Part shown: positions 5,271 through 19,228 of the stretch, piece by piece
Layout of the letters: every line of letters starts with the position of its first letter
How positions within the stretch are numbered: the first letter of the stretch is position 1
Assembly: GCA_000381585.1 (NCBI GenBank)
Contig: KB906739.1
Coordinates: 372,001-436,000, forward strand
Length of the DNA: 64,000 nt
Direction: 5' to 3'
DNA from: Acidobacteriaceae bacterium KBS 83
GTDB taxonomy: Bacteria > Acidobacteriota > Terriglobia > Terriglobales > Acidobacteriaceae
Notes under the pieces: generated by a model
Told to the model about the DNA's origin: nothing
The model's input: only the letters and a program-made list of their open reading frames with translations
Database searches by the model: none
Made by a program: the position numbers and the translations under genes

Positions 5271-8200
5271 CTAATCCTCATCGCCCTCCTCTGGAATATT
5301 GGCCGGGCGCTGGTTAGGCTGAATGGCGGGATGATGCTCGCGCTGGAGTTGGCGATTCATCTCCGGTATTTGAGTCTGTTTGAAACTTTCCCAGCCGGGT
5401 AGAACCGCCTTTCCCTCCTCTTGGACGTGCGCAGCCGCGGCGAGAAGTGCCACCGTGGGATTAACGTCGGCCTGTTCGAGCTCATTGTAGAGTTGAGCTG
5501 CTTCCCCTCTCACCTCGTCGATGCCCGGAAGCTGTTCGGCCGCGGCTTTGGCGCCGCCCTTGGTTCCATCGAGGATCGTCCCCAGCGCCGTATGGAAGGT
5601 CGCAAGCTGAGCGGCAAGGGCCTTGTCTTGAATAGCATTTATCTGCTCCATCACGGAATGCGCCTCGAGATCGGCCTTCGCGAGAACATCCAGCGAGGCC
5701 GCCATGGTTGTCTGAGCTGCATGCAACGCTTCAAGCTCGGCCTGCGACATGAAGACACGTGGATCCATCTTCACGGTGAGGGGAGCGGTCTCGCTCTTGC
5801 CATCGACTGTCAGCCTCACGGTGTAGAGACCTGGTACGACGAGCGGCCCCTGCGGAGCGAGAGGCGTGCGATGCGGGACTGCGGCAATAGGATAGTCATA
5901 GTGCGTGGCGGTGGGTGCGGCTGCGCGCAGATCCCAGACCCAGCGGTGCATGCCCGCTGTTTTCGGTAGGGGACCACGACGCAGCGGCCAATACGCCGGG
6001 ATGAGTTGAGTGCGTAGCTCCTTCGGCGCTGGCGCCACCCGATCATCGCTGGTGAATTTGCGCAGCAGGTTACCAGCGCTGTCGAGGATTTCTAGCGAGA
6101 CGCTGCCGTGTGCATCCTGCGGCAGATCATAATCGATGATGGCGCCGTCGGGAGGGTTCTCGCCTGCGGGCTCGTCGGCGGGCAATGGCGTGTCGGTATT
6201 GGTGTCGCGGCGCACGCGCCATGCTGCAGCGGGTGCAAACAAATTATCCTTTATGTCCCCTTGAGCTGCGGCCAATTGGCGCAGCGGGCTCACGTCATCC
6301 AACACCCAGAAAGAGCGGCCATGCGTTGCGACGATCAAGTCGTCCTCCTTAACAAGCAGATCGCGCATGGAGGTGGATGGCAAGTTGTATTGCAATGGAC
6401 GCCAGTGCACTCCGTCGTCGAACGAAGTCCACACGGCGTGCTCGGTCGCCGCATACAGGAGACCGGGCTGCGCCGGATCGGCGCGCACTGCATTCACCGG
6501 CGCATCGTCAGGAAGACCGGCGCTGATGGAAACCCAACTTTTGCCACCGTCGTGAGTGCGATAGATGTAAGGCCGCAGGTCATCGACCCGCATTCGGTTC
6601 ACCGCCACGTAGGCCGAGTTGTCATCGAAGCGGGATGCATCGATCTGCGCGATCTTGCTCCACGGCACAACACCGGGTGGCGTTATGTTGCTCCAGTTAG
6701 AGCCGCTATCCTTTGTGATCCAGACCAGTCCGTCATCCGTGCCCGCCCAGATCGTTTGCGTTGTCTTGAAGGACGCAGCGACCGAGTAGATGACACCGCG
6801 GCGTTCCTTCATCTCATCGGGCGTAAGAGCTGGCACCGTTGATAGTTGGCCAGTGGTTTCCCTGCTCAGGTCCGGGCTGATCGTCTTCCAGTTCGCGCCA
6901 CCATCGGCTGTTGCGAAGAGGTGGTTCGCAGCGTAGTACATGATGTGGGGATCGACCGGCGAGAACAGGATCGGCTCGGTGCGATCTGCACGGAATTCCT
7001 TCTTGCGCATGGGAAGAGGGGTTACATTCTGGACCTGGCCGGTCACCTTGTCGTAGCGGGAGACTTCCGTTCTACCCGCGCCGTAAATGATACCCGGATG
7101 GAGCGGATCGGGCGCTGCGTAGCCATATTCAATGATGCCAGCAGGATGCCACTCACGGAAGGTGATCTGGCCGTCATTGCCGCGCGTGGAGGTGCAGACC
7201 GAACCGCTTTCCTGCTGCCCCGCGCATACCTGATAGGGGAATCCATCGGTCGCTGCTACATGATAGAGCTGCGCGGTGGGTTGGTTGTACCAGGAACTCC
7301 AGGTTTCGCCGCCGTTCACGCTGACCACTGCTCCCTGGTCGCTGACAAGCAGCAGGATGCTTGGATTGTGTGGGTTGATCCATAGATTCTGGTAATCGTC
7401 GCCGCCCGGTGCGCCGCGGAGGCTGGTCCACGTCTGGCCGCCATCGGTGGACTTACACGTCACAATGCTTGTGCTATAGACGACGTCCGGATTCTGCGGA
7501 TCGACCCTCGGCACCGGCAGGTCCCCGCCACCTATCTTCATGGCTGGGCGTGAGTCGTCGGTAATCTTGCGCCAGCTCATCCCGGCATCATCGGAACGAT
7601 AGACGCCCAACCCTTTGCTGGATGCGTAGTCGCCCTCTTCTTTCGTAGACAGGGTTGCGTAAATGCGGCGGGGATCACTTGCTGCGATGGCTATGTTGAT
7701 CTGCACCAGATCCTTGGGCAGGCCATCAATCAGCTGCTTCCAGGTGCTGCCTCCATCGGTGGATTTGAAGAGGCCGCCGTTCGTTCCTTCGTAACTGTTC
7801 TTATCTTCCCATGGACCCAGCCGTGCATCCCATATCGCCGCATAGATGATTTGCGGATTCTTTGGATCAATGGCGATATCGGAGCCGCCAGTGTTCTCGT
7901 CTTTGTAGAGTACTTTTTCCCAAATCCTGCCGCCATCCTGCGAGCGGAAGATGCCGCGTTCGGCGTTCGGTCCATACGCATGGCCCAGGACAGCGGCGAA
8001 GAGCCGATTGGGATTGGACGGATCGACAGCAAGCGCAGGAATCTGCTGCCCATCGCGAAGACCGAGGTGCGTCCAGGTCCTGCCCGCATCGGCAGAGCGA
8101 TAAATGCCATCGCCAACAGACAGGTCAGGGCGATGTAGACCTTCTCCACTCGCAACGTAAATCACGTTGCTATCGGATGGTGCGACAGCGATGGCTCCGA

Positions 8201-8486
8201 TGGACTGAGTGTCCTGACCATCGAAAATCGGATTCCATGTGCGGCCGTAATCAGTGGATTTCCAGACGCCACCGTCAACCTGGCCTACGTAGAAAACATT
8301 GGGCTGATTGGGGACGCCGGCCGCTGCGCGCGTGCGCCCACCGCGAAAGGGTCCGATCATGCGCCAACGCATCTCTGGCATCGGCGCCGAGTTTTCCGTG
8401 GCGAAGCAAGCAGCTGGGGCCAGAACCGCCGCCGTTGAAAGGATTGCAGACCATATGAGCTTTGCAGCGGGGCTATTCTCGTTCAT
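5271..8486 (-). CDS. VPS10/sortilin-type beta-propeller protein ('glycosyl hydrolase' family of Acidobacteria)
   Basis: About 1,071 residues from an ATG at 8486, chosen because GAGGAGTAGGG lies just upstream; the frame is open a further 17 codons. A signal peptide follows (hydrophobic LIWSAILSTAAVLAPAACFA). Repeated Asp-box/BNR motifs such as GGVWKSTDYGRTW, GIYRSADAGRTW, GLFKSTDGGSTW and SFDDGVHW run through two thirds of the protein and build one or two large propellers. The C-terminal 300 residues contain a DLRAAAPT segment and an alpha-helical region. Related acidobacterial proteins are annotated as VPS10-domain or glycosyl hydrolase, but enzymatic activity is unproven; binding or degradation of extracellular polymers is an inference. 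The gene is monocistronic as far as visible, 262 bases downstream of the TonB receptor gene. Confidence 0.85.
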   Translation of the reverse strand: MNENSPAAKLIWSAILSTAAVLAPAACFATENSAPMPEMRWRMIGPFRGGRTRAAAGVPNQPNVFYVGQVDGGVWKSTDYGRTWNPIFDGQDTQSIGAIAVAPSDSNVIYVASGEGLHRPDLSVGDGIYRSADAGRTWTHLGLRDGQQIPALAVDPSNPNRLFAAVLGHAYGPNAERGIFRSQDGGRIWEKVLYKDENTGGSDIAIDPKNPQIIYAAIWDARLGPWEDKNSYEGTNGGLFKSTDGGSTWKQLIDGLPKDLVQINIAIAASDPRRIYATLSTKEEGDYASSKGLGVYRSDDAGMSWRKITDDSRPAMKIGGGDLPVPRVDPQNPDVVYSTSIVTCKSTDGGQTWTSLRGAPGGDDYQNLWINPHNPSILLLVSDQGAVVSVNGGETWSSWYNQPTAQLYHVAATDGFPYQVCAGQQESGSVCTSTRGNDGQITFREWHPAGIIEYGYAAPDPLHPGIIYGAGRTEVSRYDKVTGQVQNVTPLPMRKKEFRADRTEPILFSPVDPHIMYYAANHLFATADGGANWKTISPDLSRETTGQLSTVPALTPDEMKERRGVIYSVAASFKTTQTIWAGTDDGLVWITKDSGSNWSNITPPGVVPWSKIAQIDASRFDDNSAYVAVNRMRVDDLRPYIYRTHDGGKSWVSISAGLPDDAPVNAVRADPAQPGLLYAATEHAVWTSFDDGVHWRPLQYNLPSTSMRDLLVKEDDLIVATHGRSFWVLDDVSPLRQLAAAQGDIKDNLFAPAAAWRVRRDTNTDTPLPADEPAGENPPDGAIIDYDLPQDAHGSVSLEILDSAGNLLRKFTSDDRVAPAPKELRTQLIPAYWPLRRGPLPKTAGMHRWVWDLRAAAPTATHYDYPIAAVPHRTPLAPQGPLVVPGLYTVRLTVDGKSETAPLTVKMDPRVFMSQAELEALHAAQTTMAASLDVLAKADLEAHSVMEQINAIQDKALAAQLATFHTALGTILDGTKGGAKAAAEQLPGIDEVRGEAAQLYNELEQADVNPTVALLAAAAHVQEEGKAVLPGWESFKQTQIPEMNRQLQREHHPAIQPNQRPANIPEEGDED

Positions 8487-8747
8487 TCCGATCCCTACTC
8501 CTCTAAAGAGCGCCAACGGCTGAGAACAGCTATCCATGCCACACCCGACTCTCTGCCTCTCTAGCCAATGTCATTAAACTGGCTGCGTGATCATGAACAA
8601 GTCGCGGATAGCTTTCGCAGATTTCCTGAGATGACGCATTGCATTCATAATGCCAGATATGAACCCGACAAAAAGCCGCCTCGACGAGCGTGTTCGAGCT
8701 GCGTCTCAGAGTTCGCTGCTAATTCGTATTGATACTGGCTCAGGAAC

Positions 8748-12466: not shown

Positions 12467-12661
12467 ATGAAGTGCCCGGGTGACGAAGAACCAGAACCGC
12501 CAGGAGGCCGCGCCGCTGAAAGATTGAGGGAGTTCCTACGGGAGCGTCTTCCCGCCGAAACACCTTCGGAGAAGGCTCGGAATGAGAACGAATCCGGAGG
12601 TACGCCGGAAACGAAGGATTCCCCCAGCGACAAAGGCAAAGATCCGGAGCCGGGGAAATAA
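12467..12661 (+). CDS. Small charged, probably disordered protein
   Basis: 64 residues made almost entirely of Glu, Asp, Lys, Arg, Pro, Ser and Gly (for example EPEPPGGRAAERLREF and KDSPSDKGKDPEPGK), predicted to be disordered. AGAGAGGG lies about 13 bases upstream. It ends 55 bases before the GTG of the propeller gene and would be the first gene of that operon. No family is recognised. Such composition can also arise by chance in GC-rich DNA, so confidence is moderate. Confidence 0.42.
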   Translation: MKCPGDEEPEPPGGRAAERLREFLRERLPAETPSEKARNENESGGTPETKDSPSDKGKDPEPGK

Positions 12662-12716
12662 GTGGCGGCATAACAAGACATCGGCCTCGAATTAACAATC
12701 CAGACAGGAGGCAAAC

Positions 12717-15254
12717 GTGCGTGGCCCTCATGACGAACTGATCAAGGCCGCAGAACGCGCCGGCGAGCCAACAGAACTTGTCGCTCAGCCTATTCCCGGT
12801 GGCAAACCGTTGCTGCGTCTGTTACAGATGCTTGATTCCCGCGGACTCGCAGCGTCCGCCGCTCGCGTGGTTCAAGATGCAGTTCCCGAGGGGCTTAGGG
12901 CGTCCTTTCGTGCGCGCGCGCTAAAATTCAGCGCTTCGCCTCCGGGACGAGGTGCCGCGGCAAAATCAAAGAAGGCCGCCGCACCGGAGGAAGACTCCGG
13001 CCTGACAGACATTGCACGTGAACTACTGACGCCACCACCGGGGCCACCCTCTGGATCGGGGCCGCAGTGGAGTTCGCTCGGACCCTACACCATTCCCAAT
13101 GGCCAGACATATAACAGTTCGGTACGAGTCAATGTATCCGGGCGAATTTCTGCCATCGCCGTGGATCCTCGAAACCCCGCACACGTTCTTTGCGGCGCTG
13201 CGAACGGGGGCGTATGGGAGAGTTTCGATCGAGGCGGATCATGGGCGCCACGCACGGATTATCAGGCGACCACCACGGTAGGTGCGATCGCATTCGACTC
13301 GACTAATCCATCGATTGTTTATTGCGGAACCGGCGAAGGAAACTGGTGGGCGTGGCTCGGCGTCGGCGTCCTCCGCTCTTCTGATGGAGGCACGACCTGG
13401 AGCACGCTGTGCACCGCTCCCTTCGTCGGACAAGGCTTCTACGATCTGGCGGTTGGTCCGATACATCCGAACAACCTCCTTGCGGGGACGACCTCCGGCC
13501 TGTACGTATCAACGAACGGTGGCGTCACCTGGACGCAGCGGCGTTCAGCAAGAACCTGGTCAGTCGCCATTGGGTCCGGGGAATGGCTCGCTGCTTGCTC
13601 GGACGGAATCTGGCGGTCGACAAACGCCGGCACGACCTGGACGGCGGTTGCGTTGCCTGGAAGCCCCGGTGCCTTCGATCGAATTGCTGTCTGTATCGCT
13701 CCTTCGAATCCGACGGTTGCGTACGCGTGGGGCGCCAACGGAGCCGCCGCATATCTCTGGCGCCGCGCTGGAGGCGCGTGGACAGCAGCTTCATCGTTGC
13801 CTCCCGGTGTGAGTACAGGTCAGGCCTGGTACGACTGGTATGTCAAGGCTGCGCCTGACGTTGACACCGAAGTCTACATGGGCGCGATAGAAGCGTATCG
13901 TGGCGATCTTTCGGGGACCACTTGGACTTGGACCGTTATTTCGAATCACACCGGAGGGGCGATTCACCCCGATCAGCATGCGATCGCCTTTGAACCGGGA
14001 AATCCGAACATGGTCTACGCAGGGTGTGACGGCGGACTTTTCCGTAGCGCGGATCGCGGCAATAGCTGGGCCAGTTGCAACAACGGCCTCGTGATTTCAG
14101 AGTTTGAATATATCGCCCAGAACGTCGGTCAATCACGCTGGCTCATTGGTGGGACACAGGATAACGGGACGGATCGCTGGACGGGCTCTTCCTCATTTGA
14201 CCATGTTGCGGACGGTGATGGCGGCTACGTGGCAGTAAACCACGATAATCCGTCCACGGTATTTCACACCTACTACAACATGAGCCCTGAGGTCTCTAAC
14301 TCGAACGGCGATTGGGCAACGTGGTCCTATATACCGCCCTCGCTTGGAGCAGGGGAAGGCAACCTCTTTTACCCGCCCATGCGGTGCACGGATTCCAATG
14401 GCACGACCGTCGCGATCGGAGGTGGAGCACTCTATATATCGCGCACCAATGGCTCTCCCTGGACCCGGCTTGCTTTCCCGAGCGCCGCGGTAGCCAGTGC
14501 TATCTGCATACCGGATGCGGATCATGCGTACGTGGGTACAACAGGCGGTGCAGTGCTGGTCACCAGTTGGAACGGGAGTGCATGGAATGCAATCTCGGCA
14601 CTGACCAGTCCCCGAAGCGGCGCCAATGTAAGCGACATTCTTGTCAGTTCTTCAAATCTGAATCGCATTTGGGTCGCGTCCTCTACTCTCGGTGGTGGAC
14701 GTCTCTTCCGCTCCGATGACGCCGGGGCACACTGGACGGACTGCTCGGCAGGTCTTCCCAACCTTGCCGTAAATGCGATTGAGATCGACTCGCGCAATGC
14801 CAACCGGGTGTGGGTAGCGTTGGATCGGGGGATCTCTCAGAGTTGGGACGCCGGAGCAAGTTGGGCGGACTTTTCCAATGGCCTGCCGAACTGCTACGTC
14901 GGCGACCTCTGCTTCCACCCGCACGCGTGGGTCCTGCGCTGCGCGACGCGAAACCGTGGCATGTGGGAGATTCCGGTCGATGGCTGGATGACAGCACCAG
15001 CTTGCGGGCTACAGTTCGTCGGTACCCTCGCCGCCAATCAGACGCAGCGCTGGTTCACCTTCAACTGGCCGGCAACCTGGCACGTGGTATGGACTGTTAT
15101 GCCGACAACCTTTAACACCGTGGCACAGATTACGCTCTCGATGCAGGTACAACGCTCCAGCGCAGAATTTGTGACTTATTGGCTGACTGTACAGAACCTG
15201 ACAAATGTTCCCGTGAATTTCGAAGGCCGCTTCTGCGTGCTAAGTCGCTACTAA
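12717..15254 (+). CDS. BNR/Asp-box beta-propeller protein with a C-terminal 83-residue module
   Basis: 845 residues, GTG start with a strong CAGGAGG 7 bases upstream. Residues 1-100 are helical then Pro/Lys-rich with no Sec signal. From residue about 120 there are Asp-box motifs (GGVWESFDRGGSW, GVLRSSDGGTTW, GLYVSTNGGVTW, GIWRSTNAGTTW, GLFRSADRGNSW, GRLFRSDDAGAHW) that build a sialidase/YVTN-like propeller. The last 83 residues form a separate module beginning QFVGTLAANQTQRWFTFNW. This module is repeated as the whole of the next gene, about 60 percent identical by eye. The absence of a signal peptide separates it from the exported VPS10 protein at 5271. Role unknown; a binding or scaffold protein is likelier than an enzyme. 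Confidence 0.82.
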   Translation: MRGPHDELIKAAERAGEPTELVAQPIPGGKPLLRLLQMLDSRGLAASAARVVQDAVPEGLRASFRARALKFSASPPGRGAAAKSKKAAAPEEDSGLTDIARELLTPPPGPPSGSGPQWSSLGPYTIPNGQTYNSSVRVNVSGRISAIAVDPRNPAHVLCGAANGGVWESFDRGGSWAPRTDYQATTTVGAIAFDSTNPSIVYCGTGEGNWWAWLGVGVLRSSDGGTTWSTLCTAPFVGQGFYDLAVGPIHPNNLLAGTTSGLYVSTNGGVTWTQRRSARTWSVAIGSGEWLAACSDGIWRSTNAGTTWTAVALPGSPGAFDRIAVCIAPSNPTVAYAWGANGAAAYLWRRAGGAWTAASSLPPGVSTGQAWYDWYVKAAPDVDTEVYMGAIEAYRGDLSGTTWTWTVISNHTGGAIHPDQHAIAFEPGNPNMVYAGCDGGLFRSADRGNSWASCNNGLVISEFEYIAQNVGQSRWLIGGTQDNGTDRWTGSSSFDHVADGDGGYVAVNHDNPSTVFHTYYNMSPEVSNSNGDWATWSYIPPSLGAGEGNLFYPPMRCTDSNGTTVAIGGGALYISRTNGSPWTRLAFPSAAVASAICIPDADHAYVGTTGGAVLVTSWNGSAWNAISALTSPRSGANVSDILVSSSNLNRIWVASSTLGGGRLFRSDDAGAHWTDCSAGLPNLAVNAIEIDSRNANRVWVALDRGISQSWDAGASWADFSNGLPNCYVGDLCFHPHAWVLRCATRNRGMWEIPVDGWMTAPACGLQFVGTLAANQTQRWFTFNWPATWHVVWTVMPTTFNTVAQITLSMQVQRSSAEFVTYWLTVQNLTNVPVNFEGRFCVLSRY

Positions 15255-15266
15255 AGGAGAAAGACC

Positions 15267-15518
15267 ATGACAACTGGTGTTCAATTCATCGGTAGTCTCG
15301 CCGCAAATCAGACACAACGCTGGTTTACTTTCAACTGGCCTGCGGTATGGCACGTTGTCTGGTACATGGTTCCGACATCTCCGCAGACCGTGCCTGAAGT
15401 GAACTGGTCCGTCGCCGTGGAGAGGCAGGATGCGAACTATTGCACCTACTGGCTGACGGTGAGCAATCTTACCGGAACACCCGTTACGTTCGAGGGGCGA
15501 TACGCAATTCTGGCTTGA
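15267..15518 (+). CDS. Stand-alone copy of the propeller protein's C-terminal module
   Basis: 83 residues, ATG with AAAGGAGAAAG upstream, 12 bases after the propeller gene. The entire protein aligns with the last 83 residues of that protein. Shared stretches include LAANQTQRWFTFNWPA, WHVVW and TYWLTV-NLT. Alternating hydrophobic and polar residues with conserved Trp and Tyr suggest a small beta-sandwich. No catalytic motif and no signal peptide are seen. A free copy next to a fused copy suggests that the module self-associates or binds a common partner. I do not recognise a named family. Confidence 0.75.
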   Translation: MTTGVQFIGSLAANQTQRWFTFNWPAVWHVVWYMVPTSPQTVPEVNWSVAVERQDANYCTYWLTVSNLTGTPVTFEGRYAILA

Positions 15519-15529
15519 GGAGAATCGTT

Positions 15530-15847
15530 ATGAGAATCACCATAGATACCGATGCCTCGCCTGCTCAGGCGGCGCACCCGGCCGCTGGCGGCGCAGGTTC
15601 AACATCCGGGGCCGCGGACAGCATGCCAAGCGCGGCCACATCCTCTTCGACCTCTGATCTGATTACAAAAGCACTCTCCACAGGAGCGCAGAACGCTGGT
15701 CCTGCTCCTTCGTCGGCTAGCGCAGCCGGTGCTCGTGGGCCTATATCCGCTTCCATTGCCGGAGCATCGTCAGAAACTCCGGCAATGAGCTTCTCTGCCG
15801 GAGCTCCTCCCGCACACATCTTCGAACCACAGGGAGGCTGCAAGTGA
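15530..15847 (+). CDS. Ala/Ser/Gly-rich low-complexity protein
   Basis: 105 residues from ATG 15530 (TGAGGAG 7 bases upstream, 11 bases after the previous stop). The start MRITIDTDASPAQ is beta-like; the remainder is Ala, Ser, Gly and Pro-rich and probably disordered, ending HIFEPQGGCK. The stop overlaps the GTG of the next gene, so translation is probably coupled. No family is recognised. The operon position and good ribosome binding site support its reality; the composition alone would not. Confidence 0.6.
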   Translation: MRITIDTDASPAQAAHPAAGGAGSTSGAADSMPSAATSSSTSDLITKALSTGAQNAGPAPSSASAAGARGPISASIAGASSETPAMSFSAGAPPAHIFEPQGGCK

Positions 15848-16107
15848 GTTCCATAGAACTTTTGCCTGCTTCGATGGGTTTCGTGCTCGGAGCTCTTCTG
15901 ACCAGGGTTGGTTCACGGTATCGCTGGTGGATCGGCATAGCGCTGGTACTTGTGTTGGCCGCCTCAGCAACCGTGCTATCGGGAGAATTCCTGCTAAGTT
16001 GGGGATTTCTTCTAATTGACATTCCCTTGGTAGGCGTTGCGGCAGGTCTCGGCCTTATAGCCTTCAACAGGAGAAGATCGACGCGCTCTGTGCGCTCCGC
16101 TGATTGA
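15844..16107 (+). CDS. Small membrane protein with three predicted helices
   Basis: 87 residues, GTG start overlapping the previous stop (GTGA) with GGGAGG 6 bases upstream. Three hydrophobic segments are visible (about residues 5-20, 29-46, 50-73), followed by a basic tail RRRSTRSVRS that should face the cytoplasm. It is the last gene of the 12467-16107 operon. It could anchor the operon's soluble products to the inner membrane, but this is inference. No named family is recognised. Confidence 0.65.
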   Translation: MSSIELLPASMGFVLGALLTRVGSRYRWWIGIALVLVLAASATVLSGEFLLSWGFLLIDIPLVGVAAGLGLIAFNRRRSTRSVRSAD

Positions 16108-16264: not shown

Positions 16265-16468
16265 TTGGGCAGTTTTCAGTTCCTCGTGCGCCAACTGCGG
16301 GGAACGTTCACTCCGAACAATTCCTTTCTGGTTCTTCGGGGAAGTCCTTATCAGACCGTCTTTACACCGAACTCCGATACCCCGTATGCCGGGGCCATCG
16401 TTGATCTCACTTCCGGTCCCTTTGTAGTGGCGCTGGACGGCGATGCTTCCACGCCTTCCACTGTCTGA
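16265..16468 (+). pseudogene. Fragment of a DUF1254 protein
   Basis: About 67 residues with the DUF1254 N-terminal signature: GSPYQTVFTPNSDTPYAGAI followed by VDLTSGPFVVAL. Intact DUF1254 proteins are several hundred residues long; here there is no proper start and the frame ends at 16468. The fragment lies antisense to the last 118 bases of the USP gene at 16351. That gene's unusual C-terminal tail is therefore translated from the reverse strand of this remnant. Confidence 0.6.
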
Positions 16469-17400
16469 CTCTTGCCACTGTAAGCCTCTGTATTGGCATC
16501 AAAGAGGTCTTTGCTGCGATGGAACGTCGGCAGAAAAAGCACGGGGCAGGGCGCTGCCATCAAGACAAATCGCCGCAACACGTCTGAGCGTTGCAGTTCT
16601 TGACCCTTCTCCTCCATGTCAAGCCCCATCACGATAAGCTCCGCCCCCTCCTGAGTCGCAAAGCGAGTGATGGTCTCACCGACAGGTCCGTATGCCACTT
16701 TGGCGGTTGTTGCTACGTCCTGTGCGCATGCCCAGTTCCCGAGCAGCTGGCATTCGCATTCGACACCCGAAAGGCTATCCGACTTGGAGAACTCGTGAGA
16801 TATGTCCTCCACATGGAGGATGGTCAAAGGCTTGCCCATAAGCTTTCCTAATTGGCCGGAAGCGTGAGCAATCTGATGACTTGATTCACGCATCGACACT
16901 GCGGCCACTATGAGTCCGGAATCCGCACTAATCGGTCTCTGAGAGGAAAATGGCCCGCAGGCGATCACCGGGCGCTGCGTTCTTCTGGCAACTTTGATTG
17001 AATTGGCGCGATACCAATCCGCATTCTCGATCGTTTCGCACTCTTTCATGACGATGAGATCAACGCTACGGCTCCGGTCTATGAGCAAGATCCTTTCCAT
17101 CTCAGACGGAATCGCCGGCTCGACATGGACCGTGAGGCCTTTATCCCGGAGAGCGTCGGCGGCAGGAAATCCCTTGGAGAGTCCCTCAAAACTCCTTGCG
17201 GTCTTGGTGGGCTGGCAGCATAAGGTCACTTCAGCATGGCTTGGAGTCGCGAGTCTGCTGACAAACTCCACCAGTTGACCAGCATCACCATCTGCATCAG
17301 AGACGAGAAGATGATTCAGACGCGATGGCAATAGGTGTTGCTCCCAACCATTCGACAATGGCATTTGCCTCATAATCTTCTCCACGTGTTCCGGGTTCAT
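16351..17400 (-). CDS. Divergent tandem universal stress protein with aberrant C-terminus
   Basis: 349 residues. Two USP-like halves are seen: about residues 25-150 (ending RTQRPVIACGP) and 160-290 (LTILHVEDI, then EGAELIVMGLDM and MAAPCPVLFLP). The usual nucleotide-binding G-x2-G-x9-G-S is not conserved in either half, so ATP binding is doubtful. The ATG directly abuts the stop of the upstream USP gene, giving a coupled three-gene operon (18356, 17401, 16351). The last roughly 50 residues have no USP counterpart. They run through the antisense strand of a DUF1254 remnant, so the original stop codon has probably been lost. Confidence 0.72.
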   Translation of the reverse strand: MNPEHVEKIMRQMPLSNGWEQHLLPSRLNHLLVSDADGDAGQLVEFVSRLATPSHAEVTLCCQPTKTARSFEGLSKGFPAADALRDKGLTVHVEPAIPSEMERILLIDRSRSVDLIVMKECETIENADWYRANSIKVARRTQRPVIACGPFSSQRPISADSGLIVAAVSMRESSHQIAHASGQLGKLMGKPLTILHVEDISHEFSKSDSLSGVECECQLLGNWACAQDVATTAKVAYGPVGETITRFATQEGAELIVMGLDMEEKGQELQRSDVLRRFVLMAAPCPVLFLPTFHRSKDLFDANTEAYSGKSQTVEGVEASPSSATTKGPEVRSTMAPAYGVSEFGVKTV

Positions 17401-18330
17401 TCACACGGGTATGAGTTCCAACTCTCCCACGCCAGCCGTAGCTTGTTCTCGTTTCGCGCTGAGGATGGTCAGGACAGGACATTTTGCGCCAGCTACCACG
17501 CGGAATACCGTTCCCGGCTTGCCGCGGGTGCCAAGACGACCCAATCCATGCGCGCCTAGCACAATCAGGTCGCATTTCTCTGCATCTGCCAGTTTCAGGA
17601 TCGCCTCTGTCGCCTTCCCTACCTCGACAACGCACCGAGGCTCGCACCAATCCTTTGCGGGTGGAGCCACTAATCTTTCCAGCTCATCTTGGAAAGACGC
17701 CTTAATCTCCGCCTCGTTGTTTCTGTTCTTGCCAACTTGCGCAACTACATGGCAGAGATAGACGCGCGCACTGAACTCCTGCGCCAAGGAAAGCGCGTAA
17801 ACGGCCGTGGAACGAAAGTTCGTACCGAAATCCGTCGCCAGCAGGATGCGTTGAAACCGAAGCGAAGGTGAATTGGGGAGTTTGAGACCGGCAGGCACGG
17901 TAAGAATCGGTGTCTCGATCGATCGAAGGACTCCTTCTGCTATCGATCCGACGACCGCACGTCGCAAATCCGTAATTCCTCTGGTCCCCTGGACGATCAG
18001 GTCAGGCTTGGTGGCTCGAATGTTTCTAAGAATAGTTTGCCGCGCCACTGTTCCACGACAGAGGCGTACCTGAACGCTGAGTCCGTCGGCTCGCAAGGAT
18101 CTGCCAATCGCCTCCAGTTGATCCCGAACGACCACAATACCGTGGTCATGGGTGGCGCTGAAACCATCAGTAGAAGGCACCGGTTTCTCCGCTGGTCGCA
18201 CATGCAGGATGATCAAGTGCGAGTTGTAGTACTCGGCTATCGCACGAGCGTAGCCGAGCGCCGCATGGGATTTCTCAGTCAGATCTGTCAACAACATGAC
18301 CCTGTCGTACTTGGTGGCGTAATCTCGCAT
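17401..18330 (-). CDS. Tandem-domain universal stress protein
   Basis: 309 residues, two USP domains. Domain 1 starts YDRVMLLTDLTEKSHAALGY and holds the nucleotide loop GTRGITDLRRAVVGSIAE (G-x2-G-x9-G-S intact). Domain 2 starts RFQRILLATDFG and ends CPVLTILS with a GAHGLGRLGTRGKPG segment. USPs are cytoplasmic proteins that bind ATP or other ligands and aid survival under starvation, oxidative or hypoxic stress. The closest relative in the window is the gene at 39137, which shares DDLRR/DDPRR-type loops and the GLLGTRGKPG motif. It lies 25 bases after the 18356 gene. Confidence 0.92.
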   Translation of the reverse strand: MRDYATKYDRVMLLTDLTEKSHAALGYARAIAEYYNSHLIILHVRPAEKPVPSTDGFSATHDHGIVVVRDQLEAIGRSLRADGLSVQVRLCRGTVARQTILRNIRATKPDLIVQGTRGITDLRRAVVGSIAEGVLRSIETPILTVPAGLKLPNSPSLRFQRILLATDFGTNFRSTAVYALSLAQEFSARVYLCHVVAQVGKNRNNEAEIKASFQDELERLVAPPAKDWCEPRCVVEVGKATEAILKLADAEKCDLIVLGAHGLGRLGTRGKPGTVFRVVAGAKCPVLTILSAKREQATAGVGELELIPV

Positions 18331-18355
18331 CTCGCGCCTCCTGATCTTTTCTCTG

Positions 18356-19228
18356 TCACTTCTTGTACGGGATCGCCAGCACGGGGCATTGAGCGGTGGT
18401 GAGAATATCTGCCAGAAGACCGCTTTTCAGGTGTGGCCATCCCAGCAGGCTGCTCCGTTGGTCGAAAATCATCAGATCGGCGTCCCGTGCGATTGCAAGT
18501 TCTGTGAGGCATTCCCCCGGAGGCCCTGGAAGGACAACCGGAGATATCTTGTCGGCTTCCTCTGCCGGCAGGAGTTCACGAAGCCGACGCTTGAAATTCA
18601 AGTACCCTTCAGCTTCCTGGCACTCGTCATAGAACGGCAGACAGACGGTCTGGGTCTTTGAACTCTGTTCATTCGCAAATTGACGAGAATAGACCGCCAC
18701 ATCTGCCCCATGTTGGTCCAACTGCACTGCGCAGAGCACGAAATGAAACAGCCATTTCCCAATCGGCGCCGGCTTCGCCTTTGGTCCGACAATCAGCACG
18801 GGCACATGCGCCGAACGCAAGACGCTTTCCGCATCCGAGCCGAATATCAGGCGGTTTAATCCCTTCCGGCAATGAGTGCCCGTCACAATTAGATCAACGC
18901 TACGTTCACCAGCCACGTGACCGATTTCATCCGCCACTTCGCCGAACGCACAGAATTCCTGTGCCTTGAACCCCTCTGATCGAAGACTGGCTCCGGCACT
19001 CTGAGTGGTCTCCACCTCTTTCGTAATTCGTGCCGGATCGTCGGCCCACCCTCCCTGCGGAATGGCGATGTGAGCGATCGGGTCTGCTACGTGAACTAGA
19101 AGAAGTTCCGATTCGAATGTACGTGCCAAACTCTTCGCATAGGCCAGCGCATTGTCGGATACATCCGAAAACTCGGTCGCGATGAGAACTTCCGAAAACT
19201 TGATGGCTGGCGCGGTGGCTGTTGTCAT
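18356..19228 (-). CDS. Tandem-domain universal stress protein, first gene of a USP operon
   Basis: 290 residues, ATG with GGGAGGTGAGCC upstream. Domain 1 begins KFSEVLIATEFSDVSDNALA; its loop is GTHCRKGLNRLIFGS, where the second Gly of G-x2-G is replaced by Cys. Domain 2 is more divergent (LMIFDQRSS, AQCPVLAIPYKK). The 5' neighbour is a perfect TGTGA-N6-TCACA dyad 69 bases upstream of the start, the predicted site of the Crp/Fnr protein encoded at 25244. The sequence is closest to the USP at 38228 (shared MTTA-APA-FSEVLIAT start), which has a dyad at nearly the same distance. Confidence 0.92.
   Translation of the reverse strand: MTTATAPAIKFSEVLIATEFSDVSDNALAYAKSLARTFESELLLVHVADPIAHIAIPQGGWADDPARITKEVETTQSAGASLRSEGFKAQEFCAFGEVADEIGHVAGERSVDLIVTGTHCRKGLNRLIFGSDAESVLRSAHVPVLIVGPKAKPAPIGKWLFHFVLCAVQLDQHGADVAVYSRQFANEQSSKTQTVCLPFYDECQEAEGYLNFKRRLRELLPAEEADKISPVVLPGPPGECLTELAIARDADLMIFDQRSSLLGWPHLKSGLLADILTTAQCPVLAIPYKK

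Follow-up and report, generated by a model that had tools for sequence, protein, structure and literature searches.

The window, a 64,000-nucleotide stretch of DNA from Acidobacteriaceae bacterium KBS 83, contains an apparently undescribed gene set. Its conserved core consists of an enzyme with a C-terminal module, a free copy of that module, and a third gene, here called C; two further genes, E and D, are seen only in the subtype whose enzyme is a propeller. The best explanation, to which we give a probability of roughly 0.4, is that the set encodes a modular docking or scaffold system, horizontally spread, for hydrolases without an export signal. We call the operon undescribed because of the family libraries and of a literature search at the level of titles and abstract openings, in which no recognisable description of it appeared.

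Organization of the locus

The five genes of the window all lie on the forward strand, with gaps of 55, 12 and 11 bases and then a 4-base overlap, as the original prediction had it. Gene E (12467–12661) encodes an acidic, disordered protein of 64 amino acids. Gene A (12717–15254; GTG start, 845 amino acids) encodes an N-terminal helix (PGGKPLLRLLQMLDSRGL, 12795–12848, placed by alignment of A N-termini), then a GH74/sortilin-like propeller, and finally the fused copy of the module (14997–15251). Gene B (15267–15518; 83 amino acids) is the free copy, gene C (15530–15847; 105 amino acids) encodes a disordered protein with a conserved N-terminus and motifs, and gene D (15844–16107; GTG start, 87 amino acids) encodes a small membrane protein with the pattern SGEF..SW.FLL.DIPLV. 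Three hydrophobic stretches can be seen by eye in D, in keeping with the three membrane helices expected of it, and a crude threshold counted two.

Fused and free copies of the module

Within the window, the fused and free modules are 61% identical over residues 3–82 in a search (E 1.8e-32) and 59% identical in an alignment, matching the earlier estimate of about 60 percent between the last 83 residues of A and the next protein. This likeness is far above chance; the E value and the recurrence across loci and genomes rule out chance similarity or artefact as its source. The window's genome holds the module exactly twice, both copies at this locus. More widely, the gene set occurs in scattered bacteria and one archaeon, is rare, patchy and mostly single, and keeps its gene order. 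The two forms nearly always co-occur: the fused and free pair is present at 35 of 38 loci, which are spread over ten bacterial phyla and a Haloferax plasmid, normally once per genome, and of 39 whole genomes or records, 35 have two adjacent module copies. L033 was dropped as a duplicate of L065, and alignment A3 was made without L055, L058, the partial fused copy of L067 and the double module of L035. The free copy was not found at L066, L075 or L076, nor at L136, a locus from the phylum sample; L076 ends at a contig end, beyond which a free copy could lie.

In a tree built from the modules, fused and free copies form separate lineages, with 3 label changes as against about 25 in 500 shuffles. 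This speaks against recent tandem duplication inside each genome, the exception being Haloferax, whose two copies group together.

The AlphaFold model of gene B is a six-strand beta-sandwich (pLDDT 96.8). Nothing in Pfam, NCBIfam, PHROGs, PADLOC or the PDB sequences matches the module convincingly, and Foldseek with the model returned nothing at E 0.001 or below; it is thus absent from the catalogues in the libraries searched, as would be expected if it is no well-known domain. A phage origin of the module was considered and rejected, no relative having been found in the viral contigs and phage records scanned.

An exchangeable enzyme half

The part of A that precedes the module varies between loci and may be a subtilase, a GH74/sortilin-like propeller, an M64 or astacin peptidase, or an HExxE type. 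The window's protein matches the Pfam family Sortilin-Vps10 at 66.1 bits against a cut-off of 33, as do 13 of 39 fused proteins at E 0.001, and it is 47–65% identical to 12 relatives. Its profile matches xyloglucanases, and alignment to the GH74 catalytic aspartates gives repeat-level matches only; its enzymatic activity is putative. Although A shares BNR/Asp-box propeller repeats with GH74 xyloglucanases and sortilin Vps10, it differs from them in its added helix and module and in having no visible signal peptide. Among the S8-type proteins, the His and Ser motifs of the triad, HGT and GTS[SA]A[SA]P, are found in 15 of 19; the serine pattern fails in L066, L069, L072 and L078.

Hydropathy, used here rather than a trained signal-peptide predictor, shows no hydrophobic segment within the first 60 residues in any of 43 frames, of which a few are partial, and by this measure the propeller protein indeed has no visible signal peptide. 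Because no component shows an export signal, the suggestion of display on the outside is not supported.

Gene C as a conserved partner

The fourth gene had been taken for a low-complexity, disordered protein. Its composition is indeed that of a disordered chain, but it contains conserved parts, and judging from its sequence it is a conserved partner gene. In the window, C starts MRITIDTD and carries the motifs NAGPAP (about 15692–15709) and SAGAPP (about 15794–15811); across the family the start is MRIxIExD and the repeated motif is [DNS][AG]Gx[AP]P, its copies standing a median of 30 residues apart. The proteins that served to define the motif are also those in which it was counted; its strict form occurs 61 times in 37 proteins (0.85 times on average and at most 4 times in 300 rounds of shuffling) and its relaxed form 82 times in 3,858 amino acids of C versus 5 times in 25,392 amino acids of fused proteins. 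A C gene is present at 38 of 38 loci, that of L044 holding some N and that of L076 being cut by the contig end, and these include the three loci in which no free copy was found; L136 has one as well. Two C-like genes do not match the motif, those of L078 and of L075 (a locus where B is missing), and L065 is without the strict form. L034 and L035 carry fused modules, and the first frames downstream of them hold nothing recognisable as C.

Gene C adjoins unrelated enzyme types. Because it persists both beside these and where the free copy is absent, and because the module is the only part common to the A proteins, the module is the likeliest partner of C, and the C motif probably binds it. Single-chain prediction did not place gene C on the modules: an AlphaFold read-through chain of the A module, B and C of L057 (one run, 26 rows, without PAE) gave two good modules, a C whose block means of pLDDT were 33–66 and no confident docking, from an alignment in which a few residues of the C rows lie in module columns.

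Additional genes of the propeller subtype

Gene E contains the helix motif PGGRAAERLREFLRER at about 12500–12547, which the N-terminal helix of A resembles by eye. This motif is found in an upstream frame at 10 of 12 propeller loci tested, the window's included, as against 0.01 of 12 in shuffled DNA, and in 0 of 26 other rows scanned, among them the truncated propeller locus L049. Likewise, tblastn detected E relatives upstream of A at L045, L042, L048, L052 and L056 (E 5e-7 to 3e-4). As far as sequence comparison goes, the enzyme's N-terminal helix also exists free, as gene E, in propeller loci. Relatives of D were found by tblastn (E 2e-14 to 1.5e-5) at six other propeller loci (L042, L044, L045, L047, L048 and L064) and by eye at L043 and L070. 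The S8 loci showed neither a gene E nor, within 150 bases of C, a membrane gene. Hence the prediction that the five genes adjoin each other in related genomes is borne out, with gene E and the membrane gene only in the propeller subtype.

Discussion

In the docking system that we propose, A would be an exchangeable hydrolase, located in the cytosol, that bears a C-terminal beta-sandwich docking module, and C would be a disordered scaffold whose one to five motif copies (mostly two or three), about 30 residues apart, bind the module. The free module B, of a distinct lineage, would occupy the remaining sites or pair with the fused copy, thereby setting the stoichiometry. A second docking element may operate in the propeller subtype, namely the N-terminal helix of A, of which E is the free form; together with the membrane protein D it would tether the assembly to the membrane. 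The multi-part complex of core, free subunit, linker and anchor originally envisaged thus stands in part: C looks like a multivalent linker and the core is A, B and C, often with another type of enzyme, but D and E were seen only in the propeller subtype. A bolder version, which we consider rather doubtful, is that this is an unrecognised, horizontally spreading chassis common to Bacteria and Archaea that can incorporate a hydrolase of any of at least five kinds, all lacking an export signal, in a multi-subunit particle. In it, motifs placed at regular intervals along a disordered scaffold would hold both the fused module and its dedicated free paralogue, and the propeller subtype would have free-standing partners for both enzyme ends and a membrane protein to complete the particle. 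If true, cells might have here a novel means to store, immobilise or export enzymes.

It is worth considering other roles for the same genes. The free module, and C with it, might restrain a cytosolic hydrolase that would otherwise do harm, by keeping it inactive or titrating it in the manner of immunity or toxin–antitoxin systems, until a signal or lysis frees the enzyme. The enzymes belong to normally secreted families yet have no visible signal, the rare, patchy and mostly single sets are what a conflict system would lead one to expect, and C lies beside A at every locus and B at nearly all. Signal-less effectors of bacterial conflict systems are known for exchangeable hydrolase domains and a patchy, rare distribution, both of which recur here; unlike them, the present set is without an NTPase or sensor, and what accompanies its enzyme is a disordered protein together with a free version of the fused module. 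We regard such regulation as unlikely, given that the free copy is absent at L066, L075, L136 and, within its contig, L076, and that the propeller type is not obviously toxic. Moreover, among nine proteins scanned with PADLOC, the only matches, both to a generic 'subtilase' model, were L078 (6.2e-12) and L066 (7.4e-8), and no model matched the window's A, B, C or D, nor P0006, L065 or L077. Slightly less likely still is that module and C label A for transport by a machine whose genes lie elsewhere, such as a contractile injection particle, or for release by lysis, which D would aid. The lack of a visible export signal and the constant tail on exchangeable enzymes would suit such delivery, and 12 of 39 genomes, that of the window among them, have a match above cut-off to the phage-sheath family PF04984, a raw count; the other 27 are without one. 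Module relatives are also missing from the viral and phage sequences scanned, and of the 25 Pfam families listed, out of 99, none exceeds 2 of the 98 flanking frames considered (those of at least 120 amino acids, out of 130), although HlyD-type secretion domains occur in 2. The unit therefore looks self-contained.

That same flanking result weighs against C being a substrate or precursor peptide that A processes by means of the motif, which would serve for recognition or cleavage. The fairly regular repeat spacing, the leader-like conserved N-terminus of C and the predominance of peptidases among the A types fit this role, but the motif persists where A is a propeller, and we judge it improbable. 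We consider it more improbable again that the module represents a diverged form of the pre-peptidase C-terminal (PPC, PF04151) domain and serves only as a folding aid, the free copy being a by-product and C unrelated filler. The resemblance is that of a beta-sandwich of about 80 residues C-terminal to subtilases and metallopeptidases, as in the Tk-SP C-terminal jelly roll, and the structural neighbours of the module include the Tk-SP subtilisin C-terminal domain (Z 7.5–7.7) and collagenase CBD/PPC domains (Z 6.1–6.7). Unrelated folds score alike (GOLD, Z 8.0; PliG inhibitors, Z 6.0–6.6), and Z below 8 is near background according to the tool's note; L041 was omitted from the structure alignments. 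The hhalign match to 16 PPC rows is collinear but weak (2.2% probability, P 0.021), and there is no Pfam match to PPC in the window proteins or among the families listed for 75 modules, nor a PPC match in the window's own genome. PPC proteins are secreted, and PPC domains are not known to have a free partner or motif protein. B and C are kept across phyla.

The proposed docking system can be compared with the cellulosome (cohesin–dockerin) and other scaffolded enzyme systems, in which exchangeable catalytic domains with one docking module are gathered by a repetitive scaffold. The proposed likeness lies in the use of one docking module by exchangeable enzymes on a repetitive scaffold. In contrast to the cellulosome, the window proteins, fused proteins and modules have no Pfam match to cohesin or dockerin, the scaffold is a disordered chain whose repeats are motifs of 6 residues, the docking module occurs unfused as well, signal peptides are not visible, and most genomes searched have one enzyme of this kind. 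From Acidobacteriota to a haloarchaeon, the three-gene core joins a small domain missing from the libraries searched to a dedicated free paralogue and a motif-repeat partner, and it yields concrete predictions that three small proteins would suffice to test. Should the docking model hold, the core would offer a small set of parts for assembling enzymes, and it would explain in a new way how proteins from families that are typically secreted can work without signal peptides.

The two lineages of the module also differ in charge. At module positions 46 and 48, the free copies are acidic (mean −0.83 and −0.69) and the fused copies slightly basic (+0.21 and +0.31). The signs are opposite in 22 of 34 loci, the contrast is missing in the window's own pair (0/0), and the difference may simply mark the two lineages.

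The operon and its distribution

The five-gene layout originally predicted is borne out: a small helix-motif gene (E, 12467-12661), an enzyme gene with a C-terminal module (A, 12717-15254), the free module (B, 15267-15518), a motif-repeat gene (C, 15530-15847) and a membrane gene (D, 15844-16107) follow one another, the first four separated by 55, 12 and 11 bases and the last two overlapping by 4. The A protein matches the BNR/Sortilin-Vps10 propeller family and, as had been proposed, appears to lack a signal, with hydropathy giving no hydrophobic segment near its N-terminus. Its last 83 residues are 59–61% identical to the entire B protein, confirming that one module exists both fused and free, and no third copy was seen in the window's own genome. 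On the minus strand near the operon (5271-8537) lies a second propeller-like protein, recognised by eye: 1088 aa long, it has a signal-like N-terminus and lacks the module. Directly after the operon, also on the minus strand (16351-19228), are three universal-stress-like proteins in a row, likewise named by eye.

Among 300 genomes searched, the window's own included, matches better than 1e-4 occurred in three others, one of them (G272) the Bryobacterales genome of locus L065, which is listed in the window's class and so places the window in Acidobacteriota; the strongest other match in a phylum sample of 396 genomes reached 0.0029, short of 0.001. Scanning 84,980 species genomes with sequence patterns yielded 38 loci, many in metagenome bins, from Pseudomonadota, Bacteroidota, Actinomycetota, Cyanobacteriota, Thermodesulfobacteriota, Chloroflexota, Thermomicrobiota, Armatimonadota, Acidobacteriota and Verrucomicrobiota, and a plasmid search showed that Haloferax mediterranei pHME505 carries the set too. 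That scan required almost exact peptide matches and so is biased towards close relatives. In samples with less of this bias, the module was present in 3/294 genomes from the family of L051 (two of them known before), in 4/376 from the phylum of L060 (one known before) and in 1/375 from the phylum of L053 (L053 itself). Given this rarity, the set is an accessory, patchy unit that has probably moved horizontally. The operon is real and conserved, and apparently undescribed; the titles and abstract openings consulted contained no account of it.

A module found fused and free

No convincing relative was found for B in Pfam, NCBIfam, PHROG, PADLOC or PDB sequences, or for the 75-row module set and its profile in Pfam and PDB. 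Judged by sequence, the module is an uncatalogued domain in the libraries searched, in keeping with the expectation that it is not a well-known one. AlphaFold2, given 73 aligned copies, predicts a six-strand beta-sandwich (mean pLDDT 96.8, pTM 0.83), for which Foldseek returned no PDB match at E ≤0.001. Comparisons with VIA-align gave Z 8.0 for a GOLD domain (near background by the tool's own warning) and, likewise near background, 7.5–7.7 for the C-terminal domain of Tk-SP subtilisin, 7.2 for a small beta-sandwich mitogen and 6.1–6.7 for collagenase CBD/pre-peptidase C-terminal (PPC) domains. Set directly against a profile of 16 PPC rows, the module gives a weak match (2.2%, P 0.021), and lysozyme inhibitors score in the same near-background range (Z 6.0–6.6). 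A beta-sandwich is a safe prediction for the fold; PPC membership is not a safe one.

Fused and free copies do co-occur: they are adjacent, in that order, in 35 of the 38 loci, no free copy being seen in L066, L075 and L076 (where the contig ends ~310 bases after A). Across whole genomes, 35 of the 39 genomes or records searched have exactly two copies, three have one, and L079 has three; the fused copy of L067 is cut by a contig end. The L060 phylum sample added G1040 with an adjacent pair and G1283 and G1302 with one fused copy each. A maximum-likelihood tree was built from a short alignment of 39 fused with 36 free copies, and 33/72 of its inner branches are open; on it the fused/free label changes 3 times (3–5 over bootstraps), as against ~25 in 500 shuffles. 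This marks the copies as two paralogous lineages that travel together, with Haloferax as an exception to the split. At module position 33, 26/36 free copies have Y or N and 28/39 fused copies have T; positions 46 and 48 carry acidic residues in the free lineage and neutral to basic ones in the fused lineage, with charges of opposite sign in 22/34 pairs (0/0 in the window's own).

Two further arrangements were observed. At L035:7434-7916 (G266) two modules stand in tandem in a gene of their own; immediately downstream comes an M64 peptidase ending in the module, and no C gene was recognised among the frames listed there. At L137 (G1302) a very long propeller-containing frame has a divergent module close to its C-terminus, and a protein kinase-like gene comes next (by eye).

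Gene C, the constant partner

The gene described as "low-complexity" is the constant partner. Short, following B and rich in Ala, Gly and Pro, C is present in 38/38 loci (35 listed, plus L079, L044, whose sequence holds some N, and L076, which a contig end cuts short), and its N-terminus is mostly MRIxIExD (R2 27/36, I5 26/36, E6 22/36, D8 20/36). Across 37 C proteins (from 35 loci, Haloferax and the window) there are 61 copies of the motif [DNS][AG]Gx[AP]P, with at least one in 34 proteins and at least two in 22; those of L065, L075 and L078 lack it. Shuffled C sequences gave a mean of 0.85 and a maximum of 4 in 300 rounds. The motif was chosen after the sequences had been seen, and the fused proteins serve as a natural control: a relaxed form occurs 82 times in 3,858 residues of C and only 5 times in 25,392 residues of fused proteins. 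Its spacing in C is 18–54 residues (median 30), and the final copy lies ≤16 residues from the C-terminus in 26/35. A C-like gene is kept at loci without a free copy, including L136 from a phylum sample, where DGGAAP stands near the end and the usual N-terminus is missing. At L079:4822-5605, a rearranged version of the operon, the C-like gene lies between two free modules.

Variable parts of the operon

The enzyme part of A is exchangeable. By Pfam, the 39 fused proteins comprise Peptidase_S8 (19, with His and Ser motifs intact in 15), Sortilin-Vps10 (13), Peptidase_M64 (2) and astacin (1). Since the output gave counts, we infer that the four without a family are L059, L061, L065 and L079, which share HE[LV]VES.[ST]DP; the L065 protein scanned alone had no Pfam match. 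Over their first 60 residues, the 43 frames examined (a few partial) show no hydrophobic segment. Directly after the astacin-module gene lies a PF09619 (YscW-like) protein (L005:1743-2099).

The window's propeller is 47–65% identical to twelve others, and together they span five phyla. A small frame upstream of A carries the helix motif [AV]x[EQKR]R[LI]xx[FLM]xxxR in 10/12 propeller loci, window included, compared with 0.01 of 12 in base-shuffled DNA. L048 has a variant by eye (tblastn 1.9e-6), and the L044 copy is doubtful; the motif was found in 0/26 other rows, the truncated propeller locus L049 among them, and no clear copy was seen upstream in the later-added G1040 propeller locus. A itself opens with a like helix, GGKAxLRLLxxLExxGL, so that both of its ends would seem, from sequence, to exist as free proteins.

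A membrane gene follows C in the window, in the 13 propeller loci of the 84,980-genome scan and in L134. Nine of these propeller loci have a 3-TM protein like D, L049, L052 and L068 a 2-TM protein, and L050, L056 and L134 (G1040; named by eye) a TauE/SafE-like transporter frame in its place. L049 and L070 fell below the threshold of at least two segments, and the scan was without L044; these three were called by eye. With the same imperfect threshold, no membrane frame lies ≤150 bases from C in subtilase (S8) loci. At L049:7830-8252, in Arthrobacter, only the last propeller stretch and the module are still in frame, with intact B and C genes next to them; this A looks truncated.

Possible docking and partners

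The A proteins share nothing but the module, and nearly all loci have the C motif; on the simplest reading, C would therefore bind the module. When the stops of L057 were read through and the A-module, B and C modelled as a single chain (26 rows), both modules folded (block means 80–96 outside linkers) and C reached 33–66, with helices after motifs 1 and 2 in blocks of 50–66; the model shows no docking of C on the modules. This counts against docking, but weakly, as the C alignment is shallow and the linkers are short. The original prediction of a multi-part structure or display complex is right in outline, and its "display" element is unsupported.

No flanking Pfam family recurs in more than 2/98 frames. 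Sheath proteins score above cut-off in 12 of the 39 genomes carrying the set, so a sheath-type injection machine is unlikely to be a general partner. The window's genome has a phage-sheath family match (PF04984) above cut-off away from the operon, at G000:C5:220329-220823.
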